Below, piece after piece: positions 38,484-64,000 of a stretch of 64,000 nucleotides of DNA. The notes below the pieces were generated by a model, which did not search any database, had not been told where the DNA came from, and was given only the letters and a program-made list of their open reading frames with translations. A program made the translations under genes and the position numbers. The stretch lies in the NCBI RefSeq assembly GCF_020410745.1, contig NZ_CP084528.1:1116001-1180000 (forward strand), read 5' to 3'. Within the stretch, counting starts at the first letter, position 1. Each line of letters starts with the position of its first letter. The stretch comes from Kaistella polysaccharea. GTDB lineage: Bacteria > Bacteroidota > Bacteroidia > Flavobacteriales > Weeksellaceae.

Positions 38484-38620
38484 TAGATTCCATTTTTAAT
38501 TGAAGGAGGCGGTACCCTCACCTCATTTGCTTTATTAATTATTTCTGGATGATTTTTTTTCCATTTTTCATTACAAAGTGAGTCCAACTTATTAGGATGT
38601 CTATTCAAGGGGACTATTTT
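38484..38620 (-). pseudogene. C-terminal gene fragment fused into a truncated attC-like site
   Basis: The minus strand carries an open frame ending at TAA 38484 that reads VPLNRHPNKLDSLCNEKWKK, then NHPEIINKANEVRVPPPSIK and NGI. It runs upstream without a stop into the loop of the truncated repeat at 38586-38707. It looks like the 3' end of a gene whose 5' part was replaced by the repeat. The family is not recognised. Confidence 0.35.
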
Positions 38621-38707
38621 ATCAAGTCTTTGTAAATATAACAAATTGAACAATTAGTGGAAATCTTTAAACTTACGAATATCCCACACTATTGCAAAAC
38701 AGCTGTT
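38586..38707 (-). repeat. attC-like site 0, truncated hybrid (array end)
   Basis: The loop (GGGGACTATTTTATCAAGTC onwards) is type A-like, the right arm (CACTATTGCAAAACAGCTGTT) is type E-like, and the left arm is unrecognisable and overlaps a gene fragment. It is the downstream site of the alpha/beta hydrolase cassette. Probably inactive. Confidence 0.55.
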
Positions 38708-38719
38708 ATCTGATCTTTT

Positions 38720-40363
38720 TCATTTTTTCAAGAAATCCAATATCTTTTTATTTAGAATTCCAGGTTGCTCGAAAGGAATATTATGGGTGCTGTTCTCAAT
38801 TATTTCTAATTTTGCATTATCAATCATTTCTGCAATTTGCACCGTGTGTTCTTGTTTTATATCATCATCGTCACCTGCAAGAATTAATACAGGATTTTTA
38901 ATCTTCTTTAAATCATCAATGGTAATATTGGGATAATTGATCATTAAATTTAATCTTCTTTTTTCCTTTTCATCTTTGGAATTTTCATAACCTTGCTTTA
39001 TTGATTGCATTAATTCATCTTTCACTCCTTGAGGATTTGTATTCGCACCAATTGTAACCAGTTTATTTACCAAATCATGATTTTTAGCATTGAAAATTAA
39101 ACCTGTAATTCCACCATCGCTCCAACCCACGATATTTACTTTTCCCAATTTCAGTTCCTTTATTATTTGTAACAAATCGTCAGCTAACTTCTCATATCCG
39201 TAATTGTTTTTTGCAAAATCAAGACTTTTTCCTTGTGCTCTCGTGTCTATTGCAATCACCTTGAATTGTTTTGTGAAGTATGGAATTTGATTATAAAAAT
39301 CTGAAATTATTCCATTATTTCCTTCTAATAAAATGAGTGGTTCTCCGCTTCCATATTCTTCATAATAAATTTTGGCATGGTCAAGTTTAATATATCTTCC
39401 ATTCGTATTTCTTCCATATATTGTTTTTATGCCTGCTTCTCTGCCTTTATAAAAACTGATTAGTTCTTTTTCAATATGATTTTCTGTTGGCTCTTCATTA
39501 ATTATTTTATAATCAAAATTTGTTTGTCCTTTCTTCTCATAACCGACATTTATATTGGTAAGAAATGTGCCTTCACTTTTTTTCCATTGAGATTGGCTCT
39601 GATATTTGAATATTAAATTTTCCGATAGAGATTTTTTAGCAGAAATTCCAAAAACAAAATCTTCATTATCAATAGGATTGTAATCTACCAGTTGTAAGGT
39701 AATTGCAATTTTATCTAAGTTATTGAATATCAATTTATATTTTAATAAATCAATTATTTGCCAACCTGTTGATGAAGTTTTAAAAATGATATTCTCATTC
39801 AAAATTGATCGGTCTGGCAACGAGTTTTTTACGCTATAGATATTTAGTTTTAAAGTTATTTGTTCAAACTTCGAACTTGGTATTATGTGGAAACTGAAAT
39901 AATTTAATTTTGTTTTTTTATAAATTTCAAAAATATTTCCCTGTTCAATGGTTGGTACATTCTTATCAAACATTTTTGAAAAAGTTATAATGGGACGAGA
40001 TTTCTGACCAATCGTTTTTTCTTTTAATTTTTTTGCGGTTAAAAAAACTTCTTTAATATTCTCAGTTTTAAATTTTAGAATAACGTTCGGATTTTCTTTT
40101 AACTCTAAAAAATTAAATGTTTGCTCCAGATAACCTTCTGCCGTTATGATTACATTTTCATTTTGAAATTCATTTGGAATACTTATTTTGTAAAATCCTC
40201 TTTCATCTGTAATTGCACCTACATTTGTATCTTTAATACCAATAGCACAATACGATAAAGTTTTGTTTTCCTCGTTTTTTATAACCCCCTGAATAATGGT
40301 TTGAGATTTAACTAAAAAGAAAGACAATAATAAGAAGAAGATAAATTGCAATTTCAGTTTCAT
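38720..40363 (-). CDS. Alpha/beta hydrolase with N-terminal carboxypeptidase-D regulatory-like domain
   Basis: A 547-aa exported protein. The signal peptide (MKLKLQFIFFLLLSFFLVKS) is followed by a CarboxypepD_reg-like beta-sandwich (GVIKNEENKTLSYCAIGIKD...), a middle beta-rich region (about 110-300), and a C-terminal alpha/beta hydrolase. The hydrolase has the oxyanion region LLEGNNGIISDF, nucleophile elbow GWSDGG (Ser), acid LILAGDDDDI and the final His in ENSTHNIPFEQP. It is probably a periplasmic or surface esterase or peptidase. Cassette 1; ends GTTATCTG and CAGATAAC match. Confidence 0.88.
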   Translation of the reverse strand: MKLKLQFIFFLLLSFFLVKSQTIIQGVIKNEENKTLSYCAIGIKDTNVGAITDERGFYKISIPNEFQNENVIITAEGYLEQTFNFLELKENPNVILKFKTENIKEVFLTAKKLKEKTIGQKSRPIITFSKMFDKNVPTIEQGNIFEIYKKTKLNYFSFHIIPSSKFEQITLKLNIYSVKNSLPDRSILNENIIFKTSSTGWQIIDLLKYKLIFNNLDKIAITLQLVDYNPIDNEDFVFGISAKKSLSENLIFKYQSQSQWKKSEGTFLTNINVGYEKKGQTNFDYKIINEEPTENHIEKELISFYKGREAGIKTIYGRNTNGRYIKLDHAKIYYEEYGSGEPLILLEGNNGIISDFYNQIPYFTKQFKVIAIDTRAQGKSLDFAKNNYGYEKLADDLLQIIKELKLGKVNIVGWSDGGITGLIFNAKNHDLVNKLVTIGANTNPQGVKDELMQSIKQGYENSKDEKEKRRLNLMINYPNITIDDLKKIKNPVLILAGDDDDIKQEHTVQIAEMIDNAKLEIIENSTHNIPFEQPGILNKKILDFLKK

Positions 40364-40425
40364 AAAAATTAGAGGAATTTTGAAAATATTAAATTAAAAA
40401 AATTAATTGTCTTAAGATGGCAGAT

Positions 40426-40548
40426 AACGTTTTGCGTATTGGCGATGGTGTGGCTTTAATGCGAAAATTTTATTGTTATAGGTTAAACTTCGAAATATCT
40501 AAAAGTTTAAACTTGCAAAAAACCCGCACTATTGCAAAAACCGCTGTT
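40426..40548 (-). repeat. attC-like site 1 (type E)
   Basis: Type E has left arm TTTTGCG...GATGGTGTGG and right arm CCGCACTATTGCAAAAACC between AAC and GTT. It resembles a TAACGTTTTGCGG...GTTA element I know from other Bacteroidota genomes. Cores: CAGATAAC and GTTATCTGC. Confidence 0.75.
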
Positions 40549-40571
40549 ATCTGCAGGTATATTTTTCAATC

Positions 40572-41000
40572 TTATTTAAACTGTAATTTTGCTGACTCAA
40601 AAATTAATTCAGTTATTTTACGAAATTTCTCTCCTTTCTTTGGATTTCCTGTATAACAGAAGTCTTTTTTAAATTCATTCCTTCTATATTCAATATTGAA
40701 ATAAGGTGGGTCAATCCCTTCCATTTTTGCTGTGTCTTTGATTGAAATTTGTTTATATAAATCTACAATTTGGTTGTATTCATTTTTAGATATTTTCCGA
40801 TTGTCCAACTTTTTATTTGCGTAAAATATTTTTACAGTTTCATTTTTCGCTCTTTTTTTATTTGTAGGAATCAAAGTTATACTTGTCTCACCTCCAATAA
40901 TCATTGCATTTCCAGTTTCAAATTTGAGATACTCATTACTTTGGGTTTTACAAGAAATTACCAATACAATCAATAATAAAAATAGTAAATTTTTCCTCAT
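40572..41000 (-). CDS. Putative lipoprotein, cassette 2
   Basis: A 142-aa protein with signal MRKNLLFLLLIVLVISCKT (lipobox VISC). The mature part is Lys-rich with GGETSITLIP, KIFYANKKLDNRKISKNEYN and a C-terminal KDFCYTGNPKKGEKFRKI. Function unknown. Cassette ends GTTATCTGC and GCAGATAAC are complementary. Confidence 0.75.
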   Translation of the reverse strand: MRKNLLFLLLIVLVISCKTQSNEYLKFETGNAMIIGGETSITLIPTNKKRAKNETVKIFYANKKLDNRKISKNEYNQIVDLYKQISIKDTAKMEGIDPPYFNIEYRRNEFKKDFCYTGNPKKGEKFRKITELIFESAKLQFK

Positions 41001-41037
41001 TTAAATTTGTGCTTTTTGTTGGTAAATTCTTGCAGAT

Positions 41038-41160
41038 AACATTTTGCGGCTTTGCGATGGTGCGGATTAATATGATAAATCTTTCTATTATAAACTGAAC
41101 TTCGAAATATATAAAATCTTTAAATTTGCGAAAATCTCGCACTATTTCAAAACCGCTGTT
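41038..41160 (-). repeat. attC-like site 2 (type E)
   Basis: AACATTTTGCGGCTTTGCGA at the left, CGCACTATTTCAAAACCGCT before GTT at the right. Its cores belong to different cassettes: GCAGATAAC (left) and GTTATCTGTA (right). Confidence 0.75.
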
Positions 41161-41174
41161 ATCTGTAGTGCTTT

Positions 41175-42291
41175 TTAATAATAATCAATTTTTCTAATCC
41201 ATTTAAACAAGTCAACACCATCAACATTTTTTATAATTTCAATCCAGTTATTTTTTGAATCGTATTTGTATCTGAAAGATATTTTATGTTTTTTACCTTC
41301 TTCTATATATTGTAAATCGGAAATGCTACCATTTTTATATTTAAACCTTTCAATTATCATTGATTTTTTTATATCTACATTACAGCAATTGCGCTCTGTT
41401 ACGTGATTTAAATTATTATATTTAAAATAATCAAAACTTTCCATTCCTGTCCTATATCTTCTTTTGGTTGAAATTAGATTGTCATTTTTATATTCATATT
41501 CAATCCTATTTGTTAAAAGAGGCTCTTTGTGATTTTCGTCATCTTCGTACAAATCATAATTTTCATATTTGATTAATCTACTTTTCGCATCATAAAAGTT
41601 TAAGATATCTTTATAAACAGTTAAAAGTGAATCTTGAACACCATATGACCAACTCCTTTTTCCTTCTTCTTTCCAAGAGTTCGGATTTTTGTAAATTCTG
41701 TATTTCAATTTTCCTTTATCATTATAATAATATTTGTATTCATTAACAGTTCCATCTTCATCAAATTCTTTTAAAGTTGTCAATTTCCCTTTATCATATT
41801 TTTTGTAAGTATGACGAAAAAAATCATTTTTAGAATTCTGTCTTATAATGTTTACATCTCCGTAATCAGAATAATAGTAGGTTGTGGTATATTTTGAATA
41901 ATTACTTGAGTCTATTTCTTTTTCTATTTTTTATTAATATTATAAATTTTTTTATATGAATTCATAAAATTGTCCTTTTTGCCGAACCACGTATCAACTG
42001 TTATATTTCGGTTTTTGTCAAAATTTCTTTCATAATTTATAAAATAGCACAAATCAGAAGTATACCAAGTGTCTTTAAATCTCGCAATAGTTGATTCTGG
42101 ACCCATAAATCCAGAATGTCCATAATCATCATAATAAAGAAGTTGTGGATTTTCAGTTTCAGTTAAAAAAAGAACTTTTTCTCTAATTTTTTTAATATTC
42201 CAAAAATTGTATCCTTTGGCAAATAGTTTTGCGATTTAAATTCTGTAAAAAATAATAATGTTAAAAGTGTAAAGAATAGACATTTTTTCAT
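41175..42291 (-). pseudogene. Cassette 3 gene broken by two frameshifts
   Basis: One coding sequence spread over three frames. The start at 42291 (MKKCLFFTLLTLLFFTEFKS, signal peptide) runs out of frame at an A-run near 42165-42171. A second piece (TETENPQLLYYDDYGHSGFM...) ends at a T-run near 41927-41932. The third piece begins IEKEIDSSNYSKYTTTYYYS and continues to 41175. Intact it would encode about 370 aa of repeated KYDxKGN/YYYND-type strands, akin to toxin-associated or sugar-binding beta-repeat proteins. Both shifts are in homopolymers, so real decay and sequencing error are both possible. The partial gene at the right edge of the window looks related. Confidence 0.7.
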
Positions 42292-42320
42292 TTAATGACG
42301 GTTTTGTTAGCATTACAGAT

Positions 42321-42440
42321 AACGTACGGGTATTTCTGCAGGCGGGGCTTAATATAACCACCTTTTCTATTTACGAATATATTGAAAATATCTAAAATCT
42401 TCAACTAAAAACTGATCCCCGCTTGCAGAAATATTGTGTT
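42321..42440 (-). repeat. attC-like site 3 (type D)
   Basis: Single copy of a variant: AACGTACGGGTATTTCTGCA at the left, CCCCGCTTGCAGAAATATTG before GTT at the right. Stem arms are close to types A and C. Left core ACAGATAAC, right core GTTATCTGCA. Confidence 0.75.
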
Positions 42441-42454
42441 ATCTGCAGTTTCTT

Positions 42455-42940: not shown

Positions 42941-43065
42941 TAACGGTTGGGTATTTCTGTTGGCGGGGACTTTTTATAACAAGTCTTTGTAAATATAACA
43001 AATTGAACAATTAGCAAAAATCTTGATGATAGGAACTTCCGCCCCGCTAATAGAAATACCTTGTT
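42941..43065 (-). repeat. attC-like site 4 (type A)
   Basis: Type A has left arm GGTATTTCTGTTGGCGGGG and right arm CCCCGCTAATAGAAATACC; the arms are complementary except for two G-T wobbles on the plus strand. Cores: GCAGATAAC and GTTACCAGCA. Confidence 0.85.
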
Positions 43066-43477: not shown

Positions 43478-43601
43478 AACGGTTGGGTATTTCTGTTGGC
43501 GGGGACTTTTTAAAACAAGTCTTGGTAAATATAAGAAATTGAGCAATTAACGAAAATATTTATGATATAATCTTTCACCCCGCTAATAGAAATACCTTGT
43601 T
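43478..43601 (-). repeat. attC-like site 5 (type A)
   Basis: Left core CTGGTAAC, right core GTTGTACGAC. The loop variant (TTTTTAAAACAAGTC, AAGAAATTGAGCAATTAACG) is shared only with site 20, which follows the duplicate of the same gene. Confidence 0.85.
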
Positions 43602-43615
43602 GTACGACGTTTTTT

Positions 43616-44059
43616 TTACTCAATATACTTATTTAATTTCGGTTGCAAAATCCAAACTCCAACTATATAAAACCAAAGTAAAAAGAAATTCCCTGCTGTT
43701 CCAAAAGTCTCAAGATTTTTATTCTTTTCATATTTCGTTAAACTTTCAGAACCTAGAAGAAGTAATATTAATCCACATAGAATTGCAAATAAATGAAAAG
43801 GGAATATTTTTATAAGTCCGTTTCCATTATTGACTGAAATATCATAAATCATATAAATTATTAAAACAAAAAAGTAAAATATAGAATAGAAAGTCGAAAA
43901 TTTTGTTAACAGTTTTCTTCCAGAATTATTTGTTCCATTTTTTTTGTCAAATTCCGTGATAATGGAATACATCCACAAGTAAAAAGGGGCACCGAGAAAA
44001 AATAAAAAGAAAATTTTCGTGGCATTTTGATTTAAGTACCATTTAGATATTTCTTCCAT
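43616..44059 (-). CDS. Four-helix membrane protein, cassette 6 (duplicated in cassette 21)
   Basis: A 147-aa protein with about four hydrophobic segments (FFLFFLGAPFYLWMYSIITE, STFYSIFYFFVLIIYMIY, FPFHLFAILCGLILLLLGSE, FFLLWFYIVGVWIL). Function unknown. A copy at 54829-55272 differs by one residue (Ser versus Phe in MYSIITEF). Cassette ends GTTGTACGAC and GTCGTACAAC are perfectly complementary. Both copies carry the same downstream repeat variant, defining the mobile unit. Confidence 0.75.
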   Translation of the reverse strand: MEEISKWYLNQNATKIFFLFFLGAPFYLWMYSIITEFDKKNGTNNSGRKLLTKFSTFYSIFYFFVLIIYMIYDISVNNGNGLIKIFPFHLFAILCGLILLLLGSESLTKYEKNKNLETFGTAGNFFLLWFYIVGVWILQPKLNKYIE

Positions 44060-44105
44060 AATTTAATTTTACTCTTGTATGTGCAGTTTTATTAAAATGT
44101 CGTAC

Positions 44106-44229
44106 AACGGTTGGGTATTTCTGTTGGCGGGGACTTTTTATAACAAGTCTTGGTAAATATAACAAATTGAACAATTAGCGAAAATCTTTATGATAGGAAC
44201 TTCCGACCCGCTAATAGAAATACTTTGTT
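44106..44229 (-). repeat. attC-like site 6 (type A)
   Basis: Left core GTCGTACAAC, right core GTTACCAGGA. Right arm ends AAATACTTT instead of AAATACCTT. Confidence 0.85.
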
Positions 44230-45069: not shown

Positions 45070-45189
45070 AACGGTTGGGTATTTATGCAGGCGGGATAAA
45101 AATACGAAAACTTTATACTTGCTAAAATCTTAATTAATTGCTAAAATCTTCGATGAAAACGTCTGACCCGCTTGTATAAATACCTTGTT
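45070..45189 (-). repeat. attC-like site 7 (type B)
   Basis: Type B has left arm GGTATTTATGCAGGCGGG and right arm CCCGCTTGTATAAATACC, complementary except for two G-T wobbles on the plus strand. Cores: ACTGGTAAC and GTTAGTGGC. Confidence 0.85.
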
Positions 45190-46268: not shown

Positions 46269-46392
46269 AACGGTTGGGTATTTCTGTTGGCGGGGACTTT
46301 TTATAACAAGTCTTGGTAAATATAACAAATTGAACAATTAGCGAAAATCTTGATGATAGGAACTTCCGCCCCGCTAATAGAAATACCTTGTT
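46269..46392 (-). repeat. attC-like site 8 (type A)
   Basis: Left core GCCACTAAC, right core GTTAGCAGAA. Confidence 0.85.
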
Positions 46393-47005: not shown

Positions 47006-47125
47006 AACGGTTGGGTATTTATGCAGGCGGGATAAAAATACGAAAACTTTATACTTGCTAAAAACATAATTAATCGCTAAAATCTTCGATGAAAACTTCA
47101 GACCCGCTTGTATAAATACCTTGTT
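47006..47125 (-). repeat. attC-like site 9 (type B)
   Basis: Left core TTCTGCTAAC, right core GTTACCTGAG. Confidence 0.85.
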
Positions 47126-47139
47126 ACCTGAGGTCTTTT

Positions 47140-47625
47140 CTACTCACTAAGTTTTCCGTCTTTGTAATTCTGAATTACTTTTTCCTTTCCATTCTCATTA
47201 TACATTTCCCATGGTCCGTCATAAATTCCATTTTTCCAATTTCCAATTCCTCTTAATTGTCCGTTTTCGTACCAGTATTTATGAGTTCCATTTGGTTTAC
47301 CGTCGATGAATTCTCCTTCACGTGCTTTTTTGCCGTTAGAATGCCAAAATTCCCACTGTCCATTTTCTTTGTGATTTTTAATTTCACCTTTTGAAAATAT
47401 ATTACCATTTAAGAAGTATGCGGTTTTACTTCCGTCGGTTATAGGTTTGAATTCAAGTTTTTGAGATTTATCTGTCGGTATGTTCTGAGCATTTTTTAAA
47501 AAATCTGATTTTCCGATCAATGTTTCTCCAATATAAATTTCGTAATCATCCATATTGATGTTTTGAGAAAACATATTTAAAAAACAGAACATTGTAAAAG
47601 TCAATGTAAAAAATATTTTTTTCAT
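47140..47625 (-). CDS. MORN-repeat (YwqK antitoxin-like) exported protein, cassette 10
   Basis: A 161-aa protein from ATG 47625 (MKKIFFTLTFTMFCFLNMFS, signal peptide). The longer frame beginning MFNLLYLQRL... is translation of the upstream repeat. The C-terminal half contains MORN-like repeats: NGQWEFWHSNGKKAREGEF, NGTHKYWYENGQLRGIGNW and DGPWEMYNENGKEKVIQNY. This matches the 'toxin-antitoxin system YwqK family antitoxin' group, although the toxin link is by family name only. Cassette ends GTTACCTG and CAGGTAAC match. Confidence 0.82.
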   Translation of the reverse strand: MKKIFFTLTFTMFCFLNMFSQNINMDDYEIYIGETLIGKSDFLKNAQNIPTDKSQKLEFKPITDGSKTAYFLNGNIFSKGEIKNHKENGQWEFWHSNGKKAREGEFIDGKPNGTHKYWYENGQLRGIGNWKNGIYDGPWEMYNENGKEKVIQNYKDGKLSE

Positions 47626-47653
47626 GCGGGATTTTGTTTTTAAGATCGCAGGT

Positions 47654-47776
47654 AACGGTTGGGTATTTCTGTTGGCGGGGACTTTTAATAAAAGTCTTTG
47701 TAAATATAGCAAATTGAACAATTAGCGAAAACCTTTATTATATAAACTTCAAACCCGCTAATAGAAATACCATGTT
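47654..47776 (-). repeat. attC-like site 10 (type A)
   Basis: Left core GCAGGTAAC, right core GTTGTACGCA. Loop variant TTTTAATAAAAGTC is shared with site 14. Confidence 0.85.
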
Positions 47777-48179: not shown

Positions 48180-48303
48180 AACGGTTGGGTATTTCTGTTG
48201 GCGGGGATTTTTTATAAATGGTCTTTGTAAATATAACAAATTGAACAATAAGCTAAAATCTTTATGATAGGAACTTCCGACCCGCTAATAGAAATACTGT
48301 GTT
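48180..48303 (-). repeat. attC-like site 11 (type A)
   Basis: Left core GCGGACAAC, right core GTTACCTGAC. The right GTTA supplies the stop codon (TAA at 48302-48304) of the following gene. Confidence 0.85.
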
Positions 48304-49018: not shown

Positions 49019-49040
49019 GATTTTTATAATATGGCAGGTA

Positions 49041-49163
49041 ACGGTTGGGTATTTCTGTTGGCGGGGACTTTTTATAACAGGTCTTGGTAAATATAACAAA
49101 TTGAACAACTAGCGAAAATCTTTATGATAGGAACTTCCGACCCGCTAATAGAAATACCTTGTT
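49041..49163 (-). repeat. attC-like site 12 (type A)
   Basis: Left core GCAGGTAAC, right core GTTGTAGGAA. The loop variant (ATAACAGGTCTTGG, GAACAACTAGCG) is shared with site 29, which follows the duplicate gene. Confidence 0.85.
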
Positions 49164-49175
49164 GTAGGAAGTTTC

Positions 49176-49679
49176 TTAATCCTTTACCTGTAATAAAAGG
49201 TCATTTATTTTAGTTTCGTAAAAGTCCAATTTCATTTTTTTAAAATCAATTTCGTTTACATCTAAAATAATCTTTTTTGAAGTTATGATTTTATTATCAA
49301 TTAATTCCTCGTTAATAAATTTTGCTATTTCTGGTTTTTCATTTTGATCGAAATAAATTGTAGTTTGATAAGAAATCGTTTTAGCAGGAATTTTTTTATT
49401 TTTTTTGAAGAAGTGAATTTCTGAGTTTAAAATACGAACTAATTTCCCATCGTGGTTTCTGCTAAATTCGGTTTCAAATCCAATTGAACCAATTATTTTT
49501 TTAGACTTATTTTTTATTGTTCCAGAACCTTCAATTAGTTTCGTTGGAAATGATTTTGAGTAAGTATTTATTGTGTCCAAATACTTATAAGATTCAAATC
49601 TGTTTTTTAAAGCATTATCTTTATTTTGCGCAAAAGTTTGAAATGATAAGAAAAATAAGATCGGAATTAATGCTTTCAT
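49176..49679 (-). CDS. Exported protein, cassette 13 (duplicated in cassette 30)
   Basis: A 167-aa protein with signal peptide MKALIPILFFLSFQTFAQN. The mature part is Lys-rich and beta-stranded (KLIEGSGTIKNKSKKIIGSI, then GFETEFSRNHDGKLVRILNS). Function unknown. The protein at 60647-61150 is identical, and the downstream repeats are also the same variant, while the upstream repeats differ (type B here, type C there). Cassette ends GTTGTAGG and CCTACAAC match. Confidence 0.75.
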   Translation of the reverse strand: MKALIPILFFLSFQTFAQNKDNALKNRFESYKYLDTINTYSKSFPTKLIEGSGTIKNKSKKIIGSIGFETEFSRNHDGKLVRILNSEIHFFKKNKKIPAKTISYQTTIYFDQNEKPEIAKFINEELIDNKIITSKKIILDVNEIDFKKMKLDFYETKINDLLLQVKD

Positions 49680-49710
49680 TCTTAATCGGTACTTGTGTGA
49701 AATTGCCTAC

Positions 49711-49831
49711 AACGGTTTGGTATTTATGCAGGCGGGATAAAAATACGAAAACTTTGTACTTGCTAAAATCTTAATTAATTGCTAAAATCTTCAATTGAAA
49801 ACTTCAAACCCGCTTGTATAAATACCGTGTT
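49711..49831 (-). repeat. attC-like site 13 (type B)
   Basis: Left core GCCTACAAC, right core GTTATACGGG. Spacer reads AACGGTTTGG instead of AACGGTTGGG. Confidence 0.85.
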
Positions 49832-50409: not shown

Positions 50410-50532
50410 AACGGTTGGGTATTTCTGTTGGCGGGGACTTTTAATAAAAGTCTTTGTAAATATAGCAAATTGAACAATTAGCGAAAATCTTGATGATAGG
50501 AACTTCCGACCCGCTAATAGAAATACCGTGTT
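50410..50532 (-). repeat. attC-like site 14 (type A)
   Basis: Left core TCGTATAAC, right core GTTGGGCGA. Loop variant TTTTAATAAAAGTC as in site 10. Confidence 0.85.
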
Positions 50533-50546
50533 GGGCGATCGCTTTT

Positions 50547-51071
50547 TTACGGTTTCTGATATTCTTTTAAATAGTTATAAGTCGCGTCTTTTAACGACTT
50601 TTTTAAATTATTCATTTCATCGCCACCACCACTTTTGCGAATTCCAGTCGCTTGAATTTCTCTATTATCTCTTATGTTTTTGAAATTTATTACCGTTTTT
50701 AATGTTGCTACAGAGAAACCAAAATGCCAATTGATTATTGAAATATCAGTATCAATTATTAAAGGTTCTTCACCATCAACTTCGTCAAAACTTTCAATAA
50801 ATTTTAAATTTAAATTGGTTTCGTTAGCAAGTTCTTTGATAGATAATTTGAAAGTTTCCTTGACATTTGGTTGCGCTATTCCTCCGAACACCGTTCCAAC
50901 CATTCCTGAGAAGTTTATAGTATTTTGACTTTTAGTGTTTAATTGGAAATAAATAGTTTTTCCATCGTAGAAGTTTTTATTTAAAGTGCTATTTGTATAA
51001 TTATGAGAAGTGCCACAACTCAATAATGTCAGCATAGTAATAAATTTTAACAATAATTTCAAGTTTTTCAT
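50547..51071 (-). CDS. Putative lipoprotein, cassette 15
   Basis: A 174-aa protein from ATG 51071 (MKNLKLLLKFITMLTLLSCG, lipobox LLSC). The mature part contains FSGMVGTVFGGIAQPNVKET, then SIKELANETNLNLKFIESFD, and EPLIIDTDISIINWHFGFSV, a pattern like small outer-membrane lipoproteins of the LptE/CsgG-like kind, but without a firm match. Cassette ends GTTGGGCG and CGCCCAAC match; this core also fits the classical integron GTTRRRY. Confidence 0.75.
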   Translation of the reverse strand: MKNLKLLLKFITMLTLLSCGTSHNYTNSTLNKNFYDGKTIYFQLNTKSQNTINFSGMVGTVFGGIAQPNVKETFKLSIKELANETNLNLKFIESFDEVDGEEPLIIDTDISIINWHFGFSVATLKTVINFKNIRDNREIQATGIRKSGGGDEMNNLKKSLKDATYNYLKEYQKP

Positions 51072-51099
51072 ATATATATCTTTTTTTAAAGTGGCGCCC

Positions 51100-51223
51100 A
51101 ACGGTTGGGTATTTCTGTTGGCGGGGACTTTTTATAAGAAGTCTTTGTAAATATAACGAATTGAACAATTAGCGAAAATCTTCATGATATAAACTTCCCA
51201 CCCGCTAATAGAAATACCTTGTT
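51100..51223 (-). repeat. attC-like site 15 (type A)
   Basis: Left core GCGCCCAAC, right core GTTAGCGGTT. Confidence 0.85.
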
Positions 51224-51764
51224 AGCGGTTCGGCATATTTTCTTGATTTTCTATTAATTTTTTTGTCAAAAGGTTTTCCAAGTCATTAAAGTTACATTTT
51301 AAAGTGTTGGAAGTTATAGATAATGGTGTTCCATATATTTTATTATTTCCCTGTAAAAGTTTTTTCTTAAAGCCATTTACTCTTTCAACATAATAGTCAG
51401 GATTTGATATATAAATTAATAAAAATTTTGTCGAAGCAACTTTTTCTGTTTTTATTTCGATGATATCATTCCATTTTATAAGTCCAACACTTGAAGCATT
51501 TGAATTATCCAAAATTCCGTCATCATCAACTGTTAATCCAATTTTTCTCTCTAATAATTTTTTAATTCCGTAAATGCCTGTTGCAGAGAAAAAAATAATA
51601 GCCGCGATACCTGCGATTCTTATTATTTCCAGACTTCTGAAAAACAATGATATAAACATTTCAGGTTTAGTAGAGAATAAAATTCCGCATACTACAAATA
51701 AAATAGACGCAAAAGTTCCAAGAAATAATTTCGTTTTGCTTAATGGAATTTCAATTTTGTTCAT
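51222..51764 (-). CDS. STM3941-like membrane protein, cassette 16
   Basis: A 180-aa protein from ATG 51764 (MNKIEIPLSKTKLFLGTFAS). Two membrane helices (TFASILFVVCGILFSTKP and IAGIAAIIFFSATGIYGI) and a cytoplasmic PH-like part (IGLTVDDDGILDNSNASSVG, LIKWNDIIEI). This matches the STM3941 family as I remember it; function unknown. The longer frame to 51950 is repeat translation. The stop TAA overlaps the core GTTA. Cassette ends GTTAGCGGT and ACCGCTAAC match. Confidence 0.8.
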   Translation of the reverse strand: MNKIEIPLSKTKLFLGTFASILFVVCGILFSTKPEMFISLFFRSLEIIRIAGIAAIIFFSATGIYGIKKLLERKIGLTVDDDGILDNSNASSVGLIKWNDIIEIKTEKVASTKFLLIYISNPDYYVERVNGFKKKLLQGNNKIYGTPLSITSNTLKCNFNDLENLLTKKLIENQENMPNR

Positions 51765-51818
51765 TTTAATTTTTTTCGAAATCTCATTCTTTATTTCTCG
51801 GTTTTTTTGCTGACCGCT

Positions 51819-51938
51819 AACGGTTGGGTATTTATGCAGGCGGGATAAAAATACGAAAACTTTATACTTGCTAAAAACTTTATTAATCGCTAAAATCTTC
51901 GATGAAAACTTCATACCCGCTTGTATAAATAGCTTGTT
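51819..51938 (-). repeat. attC-like site 16 (type B)
   Basis: Left core GACCGCTAAC, right core GTTAGTGGC. Right arm ends AAATAGCTT instead of AAATACCTT. Confidence 0.85.
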
Positions 51939-51953
51939 AGTGGCTGCCAATAT

Positions 51954-52445
51954 TTAAAGAAATAATCTCTTATCGTTTTTTTTAGCAATTTCTAAAGTGT
52001 CCATATTATTTTTAAAATCTTTGTTTTTCTTTAAAAGAACAAATAATTCTTCTTTAAACTTATAAATTTTAACTTCTGTCTTCGTAAGTTTTGATTCGGT
52101 TAAATTAACTTGTGTTGAAATATAAATCTTGCATTTAAGTTTGTTTCCTTTTTTTAAAGTAATTTCATCTTTAAAATTCGGCATCATTAGATTTTCTTTT
52201 CCAAAAACATAGTTTTTGCCTTTCAATTTTTGAATACTATATTTATAAATCAGTTCATTTAAATGGTCTTTTTCATTTTTAGAAAACTCAATATTACTTT
52301 TATAATTTTTATACCAGTCTATTTTAAACTCTCCATTTTCAACATTTAGATTATAATTTACGGTTGAAATATATAAATCAAATTTTTCTTCTTTCGAACA
52401 ACTTGTTATTAAAATGACAACTAAAATCAAGCAAAAATTTTTCAT
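51954..52445 (-). CDS. Putative lipoprotein, cassette 17 (paralogue of cassette 28)
   Basis: A 163-aa protein with signal MKNFCLILVVILITSCSKEE (lipobox ITSC). The C-terminal NKDFKNNMDTLEIAKKNDKR, then LFL, parallels NPDFKRCLDTLKSVKKYDDR, MFL in the cassette 28 protein, as does the start FDLYISTVNYNLNVENGEFK. A diverged lipoprotein family within the array; function unknown. Its downstream repeat is type B, while that of its paralogue is type A. Cassette ends GTTAGTGGC and GCCACTAAC match. Confidence 0.77.
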   Translation of the reverse strand: MKNFCLILVVILITSCSKEEKFDLYISTVNYNLNVENGEFKIDWYKNYKSNIEFSKNEKDHLNELIYKYSIQKLKGKNYVFGKENLMMPNFKDEITLKKGNKLKCKIYISTQVNLTESKLTKTEVKIYKFKEELFVLLKKNKDFKNNMDTLEIAKKNDKRLFL

Positions 52446-52484
52446 TTTTTCTTCTTTTTGTTTTCGCGCGGGTTGGTTGCCACT

Positions 52485-52604
52485 AACGGTTGGGTATTTA
52501 TGCAGGCGGGATAAAAGTACGAAAACTTTATACTTGCTAAAAACTTAATTAATCGCTAAAATCTTCGATGAAAACTTCAGACCCGCTTGTATAAATACCT
52601 TGTT
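52485..52604 (-). repeat. attC-like site 17 (type B)
   Basis: Left core GCCACTAAC, right core GTTAGCCGTA. Confidence 0.85.
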
Positions 52605-53400: not shown

Positions 53401-53524
53401 AACGGTTGGGTATTTCTGTTGGCGGGGACTTTTTATAAAAAGTCTTTGTAAATATAACAAATTGAACAATTAGCGAAAATCTTTACGATAGGAACTTCCG
53501 ACCCGCTAATAGAAATACTTTGTT
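53401..53524 (-). repeat. attC-like site 18 (type A)
   Basis: Left core TACGGCTAAC, right core GTTACCTGCT. Confidence 0.85.
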
Positions 53525-54021: not shown

Positions 54022-54145
54022 AACGTTTGGGTATTTCTGTTGGCGGGGACTTTTTATAACAAATTTTTGAAAATATAACAAAATGAACAACTAGCGAAAA
54101 TCTTGATGATAGGAACTTCCGACCCGCTAATAGAAATACCGTGTT
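54022..54145 (-). repeat. attC-like site 19 (type A)
   Basis: Left core GCAGGTAAC, right core GTTAGCGGTA. Spacer reads AACGTTTGGG; loop has AAATTTTTGAAAATATAAC. Confidence 0.83.
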
Positions 54146-54690: not shown

Positions 54691-54814
54691 AACGGTTGGG
54701 TATTTCTGTTGGCGGGGACTTTTTAAAACAAGTCTTGGTAAATATAAGAAATTGAGCAATTAACGAAAATATTTATGATATAATCTTTCACCCCGCTAAT
54801 AGAAATACCTTGTT
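54691..54814 (-). repeat. attC-like site 20 (type A, same variant as site 5)
   Basis: Left core TACCGCTAAC, right core GTTGTACGAC. By eye the repeat body is the same as site 5, while the left core differs. Confidence 0.85.
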
Positions 54815-54828
54815 GTACGACGTTTTTT

Positions 54829-55272
54829 TTACTCAATATACTTATTTAATTTCGGTTGCAAAATCCAAACTCCAACTATATAAAACCAAAGTAAAAAGAA
54901 ATTCCCTGCTGTTCCAAAAGTCTCAAGATTTTTATTCTTTTCATATTTCGTTAAACTTTCAGAACCTAGAAGAAGTAATATTAATCCACATAGAATTGCA
55001 AATAAATGAAAAGGGAATATTTTTATAAGTCCGTTTCCATTATTGACTGAAATATCATAAATCATATAAATTATTAAAACAAAAAAGTAAAATATAGAAT
55101 AGAAAGTCGAAAATTTTGTTAACAGTTTTCTTCCAGAATTATTTGTTCCATTTTTTTTGTCAAATTCCGTGATAATGAAATACATCCACAAGTAAAAAGG
55201 GGCACCGAGAAAAAATAAAAAGAAAATTTTCGTGGCATTTTGATTTAAGTACCATTTAGATATTTCTTCCAT
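54829..55272 (-). CDS. Four-helix membrane protein, cassette 21 (duplicate of cassette 6)
   Basis: A 147-aa protein differing from the one at 43616-44059 by one residue (Phe in MYFIITEF). Same size, membrane layout and unknown function. Cassette ends GTTGTACGAC and GTCATACAAC have one mismatch, where the other copy is perfect, so this copy's upstream end mutated after duplication. The upstream repeat (site 21) differs from that of cassette 6 (site 6). Confidence 0.75.
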   Translation of the reverse strand: MEEISKWYLNQNATKIFFLFFLGAPFYLWMYFIITEFDKKNGTNNSGRKLLTKFSTFYSIFYFFVLIIYMIYDISVNNGNGLIKIFPFHLFAILCGLILLLLGSESLTKYEKNKNLETFGTAGNFFLLWFYIVGVWILQPKLNKYIE

Positions 55273-55318
55273 AATTTAATTTTACTCTTGTATGTGCAGT
55301 TTTATTAAAATGTCATAC

Positions 55319-55443
55319 AACGGTTGGGTATTTCTGTTGGCGGGGACTTTTTATAAATGGTCTTTGTAAATATAACAAAAAAGAACAATTAGCGAAAATC
55401 TTTATGATAGGAACTTCCGACCCGCTAATAGAAATACCTTGTT
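55319..55443 (-). repeat. attC-like site 21 (type A)
   Basis: Left core GTCATACAAC, right core GTTGTAGCGC. Loop variant TTTATAAATGGTCTTTG resembles site 11. Confidence 0.85.
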
Positions 55444-55860: not shown

Positions 55861-55981
55861 AACGGTTGGGTATTTCTGCAGGCGGGCATAATAACCAAAC
55901 TTTTTCTACTCGAAATATACTAAATATATAACACAAATCTCGTTTTGAAAACTTCCAGCCCGCTTGTAGAAATACCGTGTT
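55861..55981 (-). repeat. attC-like site 22 (type C)
   Basis: Type C has left arm GGTATTTCTGCAGGCGGGC and right arm GCCCGCTTGTAGAAATACC, with two G-T wobbles on the plus strand. It is the downstream site of non-coding cassette 23. Cores: GCTACAAC and GTTGCCCGCA. Confidence 0.83.
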
Positions 55982-56325
55982 GCCCGCAGTGTTTTTTTGC
56001 GAAATTTAGTCCAAAATTTCAGTTGAGTTAAATTCGTAATTATTTAAAAATACCATCATTTAGCTCGATATTTTTTCCTTAGAAATTCCAAAATTTATTT
56101 CCGCACATTTGCGGCATTTATTCGGTGCGATTTCCAATATTTTTTTTTCGTCGCTATTTTCAATATTTATTCCGGTTTTTTGTCGTCCGCTCTTTAATAT
56201 TCACGCTGTCTGTTTTGAGAATTTCCACACGTTTAGCACGGAATTTTTTAGATTTTTATTTCAGAAATTTTAGCCGTTAAAACAGTAAAATTTTAATTTT
56301 GAACGATATTTTTCACATTGCGGGC
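55982..56325 (-). other. Non-coding cassette 23
   Basis: A 344-nt cassette with no ORF of note. The ends GTTGCCCGCAGTG and CATTGCGGGCAAC pair. The body is alignable by eye with cassette 31 (61301-61647): TAGCTCGATATTTT, CCTTAGAAATTCCAAAATTT, TTTTGTCGTCCGC and AGCCGTTAAAA occur in both, in the same order. Conservation without coding suggests an RNA or a decayed gene. Its downstream site is type C, as for cassette 31. Confidence 0.6.
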
Positions 56326-56449
56326 AACGGTTGGGTATTTCTGTTGGCGGCAACTTTTTATAACAAGTCTTTGTAAATATAACAAATTGAACAATTAGTG
56401 AAAATCTTGATGACAGGAACTTCCGCCCCGCTAATAGAAATACCGTGTT
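56326..56449 (-). repeat. attC-like site 23 (type A)
   Basis: Left core TGCGGGCAAC, right core GTTGCACGCA. The left arm has GGCGGCAAC instead of GGCGGGGAC, weakening the stem end. Confidence 0.82.
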
Positions 56450-56858: not shown

Positions 56859-56978
56859 AACGGTTGGGTATTTATGCAGGCGGGATAAAAATACGAAAAC
56901 TTTATACTTGCTAAAATCTTAATTAATCGCTAAAATCTTCGATGAAAACTTCAGACCCGCTTGTATAAATACCTTGTT
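56859..56978 (-). repeat. attC-like site 24 (type B)
   Basis: Left core TGCGGGCAAC, right core GTTAGCAGAT. Confidence 0.85.
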
Positions 56979-57452: not shown

Positions 57453-57572
57453 AACGGTTGGGTATTTATGCAGGCGGGATAAAAATACGAAAACTTTATA
57501 CTTGCTAAAATCTTTATTAATCGCTAAAATCTTCGATGAAAACTTCAGACCCGCTTGTATAAATACCTTGTT
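57453..57572 (-). repeat. attC-like site 25 (type B)
   Basis: Left core ATCTGCTAAC, right core GTTATCGGCA. Confidence 0.85.
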
Positions 57573-58287: not shown

Positions 58288-58411
58288 AACGGTTGGGTAT
58301 TTCTGTTGGCGGGGACTTTTTATAACAAGTCTTTGTAAATATAACAAATTGAACAATCAGCGAAAATCTCGATGATAGGAACTTCCGCCCCGCTAATAGA
58401 AATACCTTGTT
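58288..58411 (-). repeat. attC-like site 26 (type A)
   Basis: Left core TGCCGATAAC, right core GTTATCTACC. Confidence 0.85.
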
Positions 58412-59024: not shown

Positions 59025-59148
59025 AACGGTTGGGTATTTCTGTTGGCGGGGACTTTTTATAACAAGTCTTTGTAAATATAGCAAATTGAACAATTAGCGA
59101 AAATCTTGATGATGTAAACTTCAACCCCGCTAATAGAAATACCTTGTT
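59025..59148 (-). repeat. attC-like site 27 (type A)
   Basis: Left core GGTAGATAAC, right core GTTATCTGCT. Confidence 0.85.
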
Positions 59149-59743: not shown

Positions 59744-59863
59744 AACGGTTGGGTATTTATGCAGGCGGGGTAAAAATACGAAAACTTTATACTTGCTAAA
59801 AACTTAATTAATCGCTAAAATCCTCGATGAAAACTTCAGACCCGCTTGTATAAATACCTTGTT
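59744..59863 (-). repeat. attC-like site 28 (type B)
   Basis: Left core AGCAGATAAC, right core GTTAGCGACA. Left arm ends GGCGGGGT. Confidence 0.85.
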
Positions 59864-59878
59864 AGCGACAGTATTGTT

Positions 59879-60496: not shown

Positions 60497-60510
60497 AAAA
60501 TATTGTCGCT

Positions 60511-60634
60511 AACGGTTGGGTATTTCTGTTGGCGGGGACTTTTTATAACAGGTCTTGGTAAATATAACAAATTGAACAACTAGCGAAAATCTTTATGATA
60601 GGAACTTCCGACCCGCTAATAGAAATACCTTGTT
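60511..60634 (-). repeat. attC-like site 29 (type A, same variant as site 12)
   Basis: Left core TGTCGCTAAC, right core GTTGTAGGAA. The body looks identical to site 12 by eye. Confidence 0.85.
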
Positions 60635-60646
60635 GTAGGAAGTTTC

Positions 60647-61150
60647 TTAATCCTTTACCTGTAATAAAAGGTCATTTATTTTAGTTTCGTAAAAGTCCAA
60701 TTTCATTTTTTTAAAATCAATTTCGTTTACATCTAAAATAATCTTTTTTGAAGTTATGATTTTATTATCAATTAATTCCTCGTTAATAAATTTTGCTATT
60801 TCTGGTTTTTCATTTTGATCGAAATAAATTGTAGTTTGATAAGAAATCGTTTTAGCAGGAATTTTTTTATTTTTTTTGAAGAAGTGAATTTCTGAGTTTA
60901 AAATACGAACTAATTTCCCATCGTGGTTTCTGCTAAATTCGGTTTCAAATCCAATTGAACCAATTATTTTTTTAGACTTATTTTTTATTGTTCCAGAACC
61001 TTCAATTAGTTTCGTTGGAAATGATTTTGAGTAAGTATTTATTGTGTCCAAATACTTATAAGATTCAAATCTGTTTTTTAAAGCATTATCTTTATTTTGC
61101 GCAAAAGTTTGAAATGATAAGAAAAATAAGATCGGAATTAATGCTTTCAT
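60647..61150 (-). CDS. Exported protein, cassette 30 (duplicate of cassette 13)
   Basis: A 167-aa protein identical in translation to the one at 49176-49679 (signal MKALIPILFFLSFQTFAQN). The DNA also looks identical from the AAC of the downstream site to the AAC of the upstream site; outside these points the sequences differ at once. The two copies are about 11.5 kb apart, so this is a recent cassette duplication. Function unknown. Confidence 0.75.
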   Translation of the reverse strand: MKALIPILFFLSFQTFAQNKDNALKNRFESYKYLDTINTYSKSFPTKLIEGSGTIKNKSKKIIGSIGFETEFSRNHDGKLVRILNSEIHFFKKNKKIPAKTISYQTTIYFDQNEKPEIAKFINEELIDNKIITSKKIILDVNEIDFKKMKLDFYETKINDLLLQVKD

Positions 61151-61181
61151 TCTTAATCGGTACTTGTGTGAAATTGCCTAC

Positions 61182-61300
61182 AACGGTTGGGTATTTCTGC
61201 AGGCGGGCATAATAACCAACTTTTTCTACTCGAAATATACTAAATTAATAACAAAAATCTCCTTTTAAAACTTCCAACCCGCTTGCAGAAATACCGTGTT
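61182..61300 (-). repeat. attC-like site 30 (type C)
   Basis: Left core GCCTACAAC, right core GTTGCCCGCA. Right arm CCCGCTTGCAGAAATACC. It is the downstream site of non-coding cassette 31. Confidence 0.83.
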
Positions 61301-61647
61301 GCCCGCAGTGTTTTTTTCAGGAAGTTTATTCTTAAATTCCCGCTGAATTCGTTTCGTAATTTATTTAAAATTGCAAGAATGTAGCTCGATATTTTTCCTT
61401 AGAAATTCCAAAATTTAAATCCGCAATATTTCCGTCATTTATTCCGCGCAATTTTCCAATATTTTTTTGCGCCGGTAATTCCAATATTTAGTCCCATTTT
61501 TTGTCGTCCGCGGTAAGAAGTTCGCGCTGCTTTTTTTCTAAAATTCCACGCGTTTAACTCCAAGTTTTTTTACGTTTTTATTCTCAGAAATTCTAGCCGT
61601 TAAAAAAGAAAAATTTAATTTTGAACGGTACTTTTCACATTGCGGGC
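61301..61647 (-). other. Non-coding cassette 31
   Basis: A 347-nt cassette without a credible ORF, a diverged relative of cassette 23 with the same ends (GTTGCCCGCAGTG and CATTGCGGGCAAC) and the same downstream site type C. It includes GC-containing blocks between T-runs (CCGCGCAATTTTCCAATATT, TTGCGCCGGTAATTCC), which could fold. Confidence 0.6.
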
Positions 61648-61766
61648 AACGGTTGGGTATTTATGCAGGCGGGATAAAAATACGAAAACTATATACTTGC
61701 TAAAAACTTAATTAATCGCTAAAATCTTCGATGAAAACTTCAGACCCGCTTGTATAAATACCGTGT
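61648..61766 (-). repeat. attC-like site 31 (type B)
   Basis: Left core TGCGGGCAAC, right core GTTACAAGC. Confidence 0.85.
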
Positions 61767-62161
61767 TACAAGCTGCGCCTGTTTGCAAGTTTACTGAGAA
61801 TATATTACAACAATTTATGCACTTTTAACTGTCAGTTTTTTTTCGTCAGAACAGCAATTTTCCATTATTCTTTAATGATGTGTTGAATCTAAAATATTAA
61901 TCCGTCATGTAATTTAACGCAATAATTTAATTGTACAACAGAGTAGAAGATGTCTGGAAAGTCAGTTTTAATTTTTAGAAAAAAACTTTATTTGATTCCG
62001 TCTTCTAATAATATTTTTCTGGGGTTTAAGAGTTAAAAGTGGAAATCAAAATTAAACATAATTCACAAAAAAATTTGATCAGAATCCAGTTTTGCTGAAG
62101 TCAAGTTTCAGTAATTCGAGAACTTCGGAATTAGCACAAAATTTTCTATGGCGTTGCTTGT
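61767..62161 (-). other. Non-coding cassette 32
   Basis: A 395-nt AT-rich cassette with no supported ORF, unrelated by eye to cassettes 23 and 31. Ends GTTACAAGC and GCTTGTAAC are complementary. Content unknown. Confidence 0.5.
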
Positions 62162-62285
62162 AACGGTTGGGTATTTCTGTTGGCGGGGACTTTTTATTAC
62201 AAGTCTTTGTAAATATAACAAATTGAACAATTAGCGAAAATCTTGATGATATAAACTTCAGCCCCGCTAATAGAAATACCTTGTT
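62162..62285 (-). repeat. attC-like site 32 (type A)
   Basis: Left core GCTTGTAAC, right core GTTGTAGGCA. Confidence 0.85.
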
Positions 62286-62296
62286 GTAGGCAGTGC

Positions 62297-63691
62297 TTAA
62301 TATAGTTTTCCAGGATATTCTTCCGCAATTATTTCCTCGATAGATTTATGATCTTTTATTGAATTTAAATTCTCTAATATTTCTAGAGTTTCACGATATT
62401 GCATTGCTTCTGGCAAAACGGTAAATTCAGCTTCAAAGCCAAGTTCAGCAATTTTATTTTCGATTTCGGCTAGACTGACATTAAAAAATTCTTTTCTATA
62501 ATTCATCATATTTACCTTTCTTTCACTGAAAGCTTTATGAAGTTCAGCTTCTAGCGTTCTTGCTTCATCAGAATATATCATAGCGTGAACATCAAACTGA
62601 AATGGTACTGAAGCATCTCCAAGTTCACGTACTCTATCAATAGGTTCCAATCTTCTGGTCATTCCAATTTTGTAAACGTTTTCACCAAAAGATCCGAGGT
62701 TTGAAATTATATAAACATGTCCACGTTTAGTTTGTTGAGCCATCGATAAAGCTCTTTCCTTTTTTTCTTGTGCATTTAGAAGTTCCTGTTCAAGAAGAAG
62801 AATTTGTGCATGTAATTGTTGTTGTAGTTCTCCAGTTGCTTTCTCAACTTCTTTTCTAGCTTTTTGTAATGCTTTCTGAAATGTTTCTTCTTCCTTCTCT
62901 GCCTTTCTTTGAGCTTGCTCAAATTCACGACGCGCCTTTTCTTCTTCGCGTAATTCTTCTTGAATTGCACGCATTGCTTCTTTCTCGTCTTGGCGTTTTA
63001 CTTGAAACTCATATTCTAAGATTATTTCTTGTAATTTAAGTTCTAAATATTCGTTCGAGAGATAAACAGTAGAGCTTTCACCAAGTTTGTTTAACGTTTC
63101 ATACGATTTTTTAATCCTTTCTTTAATCTGATTGATGTTATTCCATTTAACTTTTGATATTAAAGCATTGCACTCACCATTGAAAGCACGAAGAATTAGT
63201 TTAGTGAATTTTTTTGTCGAAGCTCGCCCTTTTGCCTCACTGCCATCAATGGTCCATCTCGTATTACAAATTGCAGCTGTATCGAGTTGAATCATGCTTT
63301 TTTGTTGTTCGATAATGCTTTTTTGTTCAGCACGGTACTCTTCAGATTTTTCAAAATCGTAAATAGGTTCATAAATTCCAAATTCAATTAAATCTATTTT
63401 CGATTCAAATAAGCTCACATCTTTTCTCAGTCGCGTATAAGTTTCCAAGGAAGCTTGGTAAGTAATATCTAATTTTTCAAAATCACTCTGCAGCTTTTGA
63501 AGTACTTCTGTTTTATTCTCAATTGTTGTATTTAGTTCCTTGGTCTTTTCAAATATTAAAGATTGTATTTCAATTTCTTTGTTGACGATTTCTTGTTCAA
63601 TATTCGAAATTGGTTTGTACTTTTCTAGTTGCGTTTTTAACAGTTTAATTTCATTTAGTTCTTTTCTCTTCAAAAAGTCAAATAATCCCAT
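62297..63691 (-). CDS. DUF4041 / T5orf172 (GIY-YIG-like) protein, cassette 33
   Basis: A 464-aa protein. The N-terminal part is coiled (KTQLEKYKPISNIEQEIVNK) and leads into a DUF4041-type domain (CNTRWTIDGSEAKGRASTKK, then FTKLILRAFNGECNALISKV). A long charged coiled coil follows (about 240-325), and the C-terminus is a T5orf172/Mug113-type GIY-YIG nuclease domain (GHVYIISNLGSFGENVYKIG, MTRRLEPIDRVRELG, ARTLEAELHKAFSERKVN). Such proteins occur in phages and defence-related loci; the exact role is unknown. It is the longest intact cassette gene after the hydrolase. Cassette ends GTTGTAGGCA and TGCCTACAAC are perfectly complementary. Confidence 0.85.
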   Translation of the reverse strand: MGLFDFLKRKELNEIKLLKTQLEKYKPISNIEQEIVNKEIEIQSLIFEKTKELNTTIENKTEVLQKLQSDFEKLDITYQASLETYTRLRKDVSLFESKIDLIEFGIYEPIYDFEKSEEYRAEQKSIIEQQKSMIQLDTAAICNTRWTIDGSEAKGRASTKKFTKLILRAFNGECNALISKVKWNNINQIKERIKKSYETLNKLGESSTVYLSNEYLELKLQEIILEYEFQVKRQDEKEAMRAIQEELREEEKARREFEQAQRKAEKEEETFQKALQKARKEVEKATGELQQQLHAQILLLEQELLNAQEKKERALSMAQQTKRGHVYIISNLGSFGENVYKIGMTRRLEPIDRVRELGDASVPFQFDVHAMIYSDEARTLEAELHKAFSERKVNMMNYRKEFFNVSLAEIENKIAELGFEAEFTVLPEAMQYRETLEILENLNSIKDHKSIEEIIAEEYPGKLY

Positions 63692-63747
63692 ATTTCATGT
63701 TTTTATCTCTATGTTTTTGTATGCGTGATCTTGGTTGCATTGCCTAC

Positions 63748-63866
63748 AACGGTTGGGTATTTATGCAGGCGGGATAAAAATACGAAAACTTTATACTTGC
63801 TAAAAACTTAATTAATCGCTAAAATCTTCGATGAAAACTTCATACCCGCTTGTATAAATACCTTGT
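63748..63866 (-). repeat. attC-like site 33 (type B)
   Basis: Left core TGCCTACAAC, right core GTTATCGGCA. This is the last complete site in the window. Confidence 0.85.
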
Positions 63867-63892
63867 TATCGGCAGTTTATTGTAATCGAAAT

Positions 63893-64000
63893 TTACCGGT
63901 ATTCATAGACTCGTAAAGTGACGTTATCAAGTTTCCCATCAATAGTTTCAATTTTTTGAATCCAATTGCAATAGTTATCATAAACATATTCATAGCGATT
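63893..64000 (-). CDS. C-terminal end of a beta-repeat protein gene, cassette 34 (partial)
   Basis: The last 35 residues of a minus-strand gene that continues past the right edge: NRYEYVYDNYCNWIQKIETI, then DGKLDNVTLRVYEYR. The pattern Y-x-Y-D-x-x-x-N-W-I resembles the C-terminus of the broken cassette 3 gene (YKYDSKNNWIEIIKNVDGVD). It shows that the array extends beyond this window. Confidence 0.65.
   Translation of the reverse strand, partial: NRYEYVYDNYCNWIQKIETIDGKLDNVTLRVYEYR

Follow-up and report, generated by a model that had tools for sequence, protein, structure and literature searches.

A candidate integron-like cassette platform in the chromosome of Kaistella polysaccharea beside a tyrosine recombinase without the IntI insert

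The 64,000-nucleotide stretch of the Kaistella polysaccharea chromosome analyzed here (the window; assembly GCF_020410745.1, contig NZ_CP084528.1, positions 1,116,001 to 1,180,000) holds an array of hairpin sites alternating with small genes. A preliminary description had offered two readings of this array, either an integron that has diverged or a hairpin-cassette system of its own kind; both remain, and the integron-like reading is now strongly supported. Very probably we are dealing with an integron-like platform of the chromosome: a tyrosine recombinase that is encoded next to the array and lacks the insert of the integron integrase IntI would insert circular cassettes via their folded bottom strand at an attI-like junction. 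The array would function like an integron because it has an adjacent, divergently encoded integrase, an attI-like junction, cassettes whose own ends are complementary, and whole cassettes that recur. It is not an integron by the current definition because the defining IntI domain was absent when tested for.

The genome consists of one contig of 2,687,097 bases (C1; the window is C1:1116001-1180000), and positions called extended carry the window numbering on past 64,000 of the same contig. Thirty-three complete hairpin sites, all on the minus strand and each 119-125 bp long from AAC to GTT, lie within the window between 40426 and 63867, in agreement with the number and length range first described. 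Ten further sites lie past the right edge, bringing the array to 43 complete sites over 32.6 kb (extended 38578-71142). Its left end, previously placed near 38586, is a degenerate remnant that scores 45.2 bits as against 77-163 bits for the remaining sites of the array. A GTTR core follows all 43 sites and extends to GTTRRRY in two of them, as had been noticed; at relatives' loci GTTRRRY was found in 2 of 55 sites. Single genes coding on the minus strand had been described; the longest open reading frame lies on this strand in 39 of the 43 cassettes, and a few cassettes appear to be gene-less because that frame reaches at least 80 residues in only 38. The site sequences matched no Rfam family at gathering score.

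The window itself contains no integrase, as was first reported, but the contig does: a tyrosine recombinase of 361 residues is encoded 7.3 kb past the window's end (C1:1187284-1188369, extended 71284-72369), divergently from the cassettes and 142 bp from the first of them. All six catalytic residues are present, and R/K/H/R/H/Y are conserved in 110, 110, 109, 109, 109, and 106 of 110 aligned relatives, respectively. The IntI insert of about 41 residues was found in 31 of 31 IntI sequences and in none of the 110 relatives; correspondingly, the distance from the K-box arginine to the first H of HxxR is 53-63 residues in all 110 family members and 100 residues in all 31 IntI. The structure match 2a3v aligns in two pieces flanking the gap, and the integron-integrase model TIGR02249 matches over two stretches with 170 bits, below its cut-off of 265. 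A search of the whole genome with the IntI model gave no match over the cut-off, so the recombinase with an IntI-type extra domain that had been proposed as a check did not appear. The best NCBIfam match is the archaeal XerA model NF040815 ("site-specific tyrosine recombinase/integron integrase"), with 193.2 bits against a cut-off of 220, and XerA is also the best match in the PDB by sequence and by fold. The protein has an extra N-terminal domain, which may resemble the HARP-like DNA-binding domain, and an IntI-like C-terminal end (SPLDHL). In the tree, IntI forms one clade with the array's recombinase outside it; the branching order between IntI and the insert-less family is tentative (89/38, with long branches meeting). 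Two further Xer-like proteins are encoded in the genome (L001, L002). A surA-like gene adjoins the recombinase, and the same neighbor stands beside the integrase in two more genomes from the genus, G007 and G017, most of the loci compared being too short to show this gene.

The two ends of each cassette match one another. Of the first nine cassette bases behind GTT, 7.31 on average agree with the reverse complement of the nine that precede AAC in the site belonging to that cassette, compared with 3.66 for other sites, and none of 10,000 permutations reached the own-site value. The two ends inside one integrated site agree at chance level (3.81 matches). Position 8 after GTT is A at all 43 cassette starts and is paired by the cassette's other end in 0 of 42, a top-strand mismatch that the bottom strand turns into a G-T wobble. 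Such complementarity is the trace expected when a unit leaves in circular form and is inserted between G and TT. It is also the relation found in integrons, where each cassette begins with bases that pair with the beginning of the attC it carries, because R' and R'' stem from a single circle. The relation extends to relatives' loci: for 55 cassettes from 25 loci outside the 20 Kaistella stretches (one of these loci is from Kaistella palustris), own ends agreed at 4.84 of 7 positions, compared with 2.28 for others and 3.56 when permuted within loci, and 0 of 5000 permutations were as high.

The junction between recombinase and first cassette carries the motif [CT]ATATTTG-N3-GTT at 22 of 27 loci (19 of 20 in Kaistella, 3 of 7 elsewhere; 0.0002 by shuffles), with TTG 17-21 bases upstream of [CT]ATATTTG at 16 of the 27. 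The promoter pattern of Bacteroidota is TTTG-N19-TAnnTTTG. We read the junction as a candidate attI site with a predicted promoter inside. Repeats resembling TGCGTATTT were seen by eye farther upstream of the junction.

Whole cassettes recur within and between arrays, at changed positions and also in different species. Among 15 arrays of the genus (two from one genome) we found 52 similar cassette pairs, in a comparison where one 690-bp cassette had been split in two by a spurious site. Twenty-eight pairs match at 90% or more over the entire cassette, and ten of these are between genomes, as with a cassette that is 100% identical in G019 and G032; the flanks of the 52 pairs average about 50% identity. 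Seven cassettes of the K. polysaccharea array have an identical or 99.6% copy within it (Table 1). Those of 666, 690, 648, and 719 bp stand in this order near the integrase, and their copies farther out run 666, 719, 690, and then 648. As in integrons, whole cassettes appear to be gained, lost, and shuffled. The same cassettes in the same order among relatives, or sites standing singly and scattered, had been named as observations that would count against such a system; the cassettes differ largely between relatives, and the sites occur in arrays. Genome G030 has two arrays (L168-L172), and both contain a unit, some 2.2-2.7 kb long, whose copies are about 99% alike but differ at their ends, which gives 73-91% overall.

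When the sites were folded as single-stranded DNA, a check proposed at the outset, the bottom strand was predicted to fold better than the top strand in 41 of the 43 sites and in 56 of 73 sites of relatives. With the arms folded alone, the first 18 pairs contained 17 interior loops on the bottom strand and 111 on the top strand. Compared with the integrated site, circles modeled from the cassettes give the better fold in 41 of 42 cases, by a mean of 6.2 kcal/mol. The extrahelical bases of integron bottom-strand stems were mostly absent: 42 of the 43 sites are bulge-free in the first 16 pairs, asymmetric loops being found in one site within 16 pairs and in seven within 18. Folded likewise, the canonical aadA1 attC has two single-base bulges, and five of seven candidates near IntI have two or three. 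In canonical systems, according to the relevant passages of PMC4792948, the strand is chosen with the help of bulged bases, which are held by the IntI insert; both the insert and the bulges are mostly missing in the Kaistella array. The strands differ instead in their G-T wobbles. In 102 Kaistella sites, 203 wobbles are formable only on the bottom strand and 46 only on the top strand; the corresponding counts in 90 sites at other loci, which include one from K. palustris (L041), are 164 and 58. By locus, counting neighboring sites with gap-free arms at 27 of the best 80 loci, bottom-strand wobbles were more numerous in 22, fewer in 2, and tied in 3. For these counts, sites were oriented by the direction of the open reading frames, identical arms were counted once, and lone sites were excluded; the counts cover the Kaistella sites and those of relatives' loci.

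Our site model, R1, finds sites in all 36 genomes of the genus (5-54 each), in the single genome of the same family, and in 3 of 23 of the same order. Matches to the recombinase in the 36 genomes are long in 21 (54-81% identity), broken in one (G008), limited to a form of about 40% in eight, and absent in six. The named loci examined are the best 80 of at least 580 relatives. These 80 come from Flavobacteriaceae, Chitinophagaceae, Sphingobacteriaceae, Cytophagales, and other groups, and a few lie outside Bacteroidota. Arrays read away from the integrase at 23 of 26 of these loci, and at 21 of the 26 (within L040-L119) they do so on its 3' side. By eye, a box resembling TATATTTG follows the integrase stop codon at several 3'-side loci. 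In a fresh draw, the recombinase family (E 1e-60) was present in 84 of 149 Bacteroidia genomes. At 20 loci from those 84 genomes, selected for high score and enough contig around the gene, a complete cassette was nearby at nine (20 cassettes), compared with none of 18 control stretches (p 0.0013). Of 395 genomes of the phylum, 105 have a canonical IntI above the cut-off, as does one of 98 rows of the class Bacteroidia. Insert-less relatives also occur in the records of an Undinarchaeales metagenome-assembled genome (MAG; L112), a Clostridia MAG (L115), Marinicella pacifica (L087), and a Spirochaetes MAG (L093), where MAG contigs may be misplaced. A Chryseobacterium plasmid (L121; NZ_CP041688.1, 6035-27048) encodes at 9974-11017 an integrase that is a relative of the recombinase at about 42% and whose record name is "site-specific tyrosine recombinase/integron integrase"; such platforms may also travel on plasmids.

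In the mechanism that we propose, the recombinase would act on the hairpin sites of the array. Strand choice would come from G-T wobbles formable only on the bottom strand, which would replace the bulged bases that the IntI insert recognizes. With its two ends matching, the excised circle would form a hairpin superior to that of the integrated site, and this would favor capture over loss. The first cassettes would be transcribed from the predicted promoter, whose -7 box would end three bases ahead of the crossover. Identical copies in one array could arise from single-strand movement, replication giving the second copy.

Several observations weigh against this proposal. Six genomes of the genus (G005, G018, G019, G020, G025, G035) have 5-25 sites and no family integrase match above the Xer level; their arrays seem to have lost their recombinase. 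Eleven of the 20 freshly drawn loci, several of them truncated where the contig stops, lack a complete cassette, 5 of the 27 junctions lack the core, and 24 of the 52 similar cassette pairs match only partially. Among the 73 sites at other loci, 17 fold better as the top strand, and in 13, six of them at one Flavobacterium locus, an asymmetric loop interrupts the first 16 pairs; some of these loops are single bases, located on the other arm than in canonical sites. The few canonical sites that we folded have strand energy differences of 0.1-4.2 kcal/mol, and the energy gap alone is not peculiar to the Kaistella system because canonical sites show gaps too. Passages of PMC9668308 and PMC8138268 describe the IntI insert as necessary for integron recombination. 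Finally, the proposal is built on sequence, and the recombination itself is predicted.

The alternative that survives best, itself rather unlikely, is an independent hairpin-cassette system that arose from an Xer-like recombinase and converged on the design of integrons. The order of elements, the core cut between G and TT, the own-end complementarity, and the bottom-strand bias are shared with integrons in detail, which argues against convergence, as does the tentative branching order of IntI and the insert-less family. Most likely, the array represents a variant of the integron in which insert and bulges are jointly missing, the one from the recombinase and the other from the sites.

Two further alternatives keep the cassettes mobile and assign them to another enzyme. 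We think it improbable that this is a canonical integron with its IntI elsewhere or lost and the neighboring recombinase a bystander. The SPLDHL end, the two-piece match to the IntI model, and the six genomes with sites and no integrase fit such a history, and attC clusters without an integrase are described in a section of PMC9024848. Against it stand the lack of any IntI over the cut-off in the genome, the single case in the class, the scarcity of GTTRRRY cores, the nearly bulge-free sites, and the fact that the insert-less family, not IntI, adjoins arrays at many loci, most of which read away from it. We give equally little credence to movement by host XerC/XerD, as for some filamentous phages, instead of by the neighboring enzyme: the two additional Xer-like proteins could serve, and the hairpins are bulge-free like the phage site treated in part of PMC4792948, but the neighboring family keeps its catalytic residues and its place beside arrays in distant genera. 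That the sites are ordinary repeats, such as terminators or RNA elements that separate duplicated genes and owe their spread to homologous recombination, is barely credible. The sites of any one genome do resemble each other closely, there are duplicated cassettes, and no recombination was seen, but the cassettes have complementary own ends, identity that stops at their borders, an adjacent recombinase and junction, no Rfam family, and no counterparts in the control stretches.

The features within the window are listed in Table 1. A short palindromic stretch, GTACGGTACGTACGGTAC, lies at about 38335-38365 of the window, just beyond the distal end of the array.

Table 1. Hairpin sites and recurring cassettes of the array within the window (window positions).
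Feature	Position	Strand	Remark
Array part inside window	38578..64000	-	array goes on to extended 71142
Degenerate hairpin site	38578..38716	-	distal end of array; 45.2 bits
Hairpin site 43	40426..40548	-	sole site with asymmetric loop in first 16 pairs
Hairpin site 42	41038..41160	-	
Hairpin site 41	42321..42440	-	
Hairpin site 40	42942..43065	-	162.6 bits bottom strand vs 43.1 top strand
Hairpin site 39	43478..43601	-	
Hairpin site 38	44106..44229	-	
Hairpin site 37	45070..45189	-	
Hairpin site 36	46269..46392	-	
Hairpin site 35	47006..47125	-	
Hairpin site 34	47654..47776	-	
Hairpin site 33	48180..48303	-	
Hairpin site 32	49040..49163	-	
Hairpin site 31	49711..49831	-	
Hairpin site 30	50410..50532	-	
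Hairpin site 29	51100..51223	-	
Hairpin site 28	51819..51938	-	
Hairpin site 27	52485..52604	-	
Hairpin site 26	53401..53524	-	
Hairpin site 25	54022..54145	-	
Hairpin site 24	54691..54814	-	
Hairpin site 23	55319..55443	-	
Hairpin site 22	55861..55981	-	
Hairpin site 21	56326..56449	-	
Hairpin site 20	56859..56978	-	
Hairpin site 19	57453..57572	-	
Hairpin site 18	58288..58411	-	
Hairpin site 17	59025..59148	-	
Hairpin site 16	59744..59863	-	
Hairpin site 15	60511..60634	-	
Hairpin site 14	61182..61300	-	
Hairpin site 13	61648..61767	-	
Hairpin site 12	62162..62285	-	
Hairpin site 11	63748..63867	-	
628-bp cassette	43478..44105	-	99.6% to 54691-55318
648-bp cassette	47006..47653	-	identical copy at extended 67423-68070
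671-bp cassette	49040..49710	-	100% identical to 60511-61181; flanks about 40-60%
690-bp cassette	50410..51099	-	identical copy at extended 68071-68760
719-bp cassette	51100..51818	-	identical copy at extended 66704-67422, past window
666-bp cassette	51819..52484	-	identical copy at extended 68761-69426, past window
628-bp cassette	54691..55318	-	99.6% to 43478-44105
465-bp cassette without long open reading frame	55861..56325	-	identical copy at extended 70141-70605
671-bp cassette	60511..61181	-	100% identical to 49040-49710

The Kaistella array resembles the sedentary chromosomal integrons of the Vibrio type (IntI, attI, Pc, attC/VCR) in its divergent integrase gene, its attI-like junction with a predicted promoter, its one-gene cassettes in one direction, hairpins of about 120 bp, the cut between G and TT, own-end complementarity, and the recurrence of whole cassettes. 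It differs from them in an integrase without the IntI insert and with an additional N-terminal domain, in the GTTR core, in the nearly bulge-free stems, and in a strand bias carried by G-T wobbles. Reverse or inverted integrons are known from Treponema. Those arrays of relatives that start beyond the 3' end of the integrase gene and read away from it are arranged like these, whereas the relatives' recombinase lacks the insert. Archaeal XerA, the closest match of the Kaistella recombinase among the models and structures, differs in that the Kaistella protein falls below the cut-off of its model, has the additional N-terminal domain, and stands beside a cassette array. Unlike integrase-less attC clusters, the array has a dedicated recombinase and an attI-like junction next to it. 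Our search of the literature found nothing linking insert-less recombinases with cassette arrays.

Integron surveys define the system by the IntI insert, and, judging by the account of IntegronFinder in part of PMC9668308, arrays like that of Kaistella would be passed over; a search demanding the IntI domain would at most report an integrase-less attC cluster. A wider proposal, which we hold plausible without favoring it, is that Bacteroidota possess a second, perhaps older integron lineage, with an Xer-like, insert-less recombinase that has its own N-terminal DNA-binding domain, bulge-free hairpins, strand choice by wobbles, and capture prevailing over loss. If this is true, the IntI insert and the bulged bases would be a later, paired refinement. 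An Xer-like ancestor is supposed, in a passage of PMC4792948, to have gained the insert for handling bulged bases, and insert-less recombinases beside mostly bulge-free sites make that question of ancestry testable. If the integron-like reading is true, a large phylum would have platforms of its own for collecting genes, and in them a reservoir of small genes, most of them unknown.

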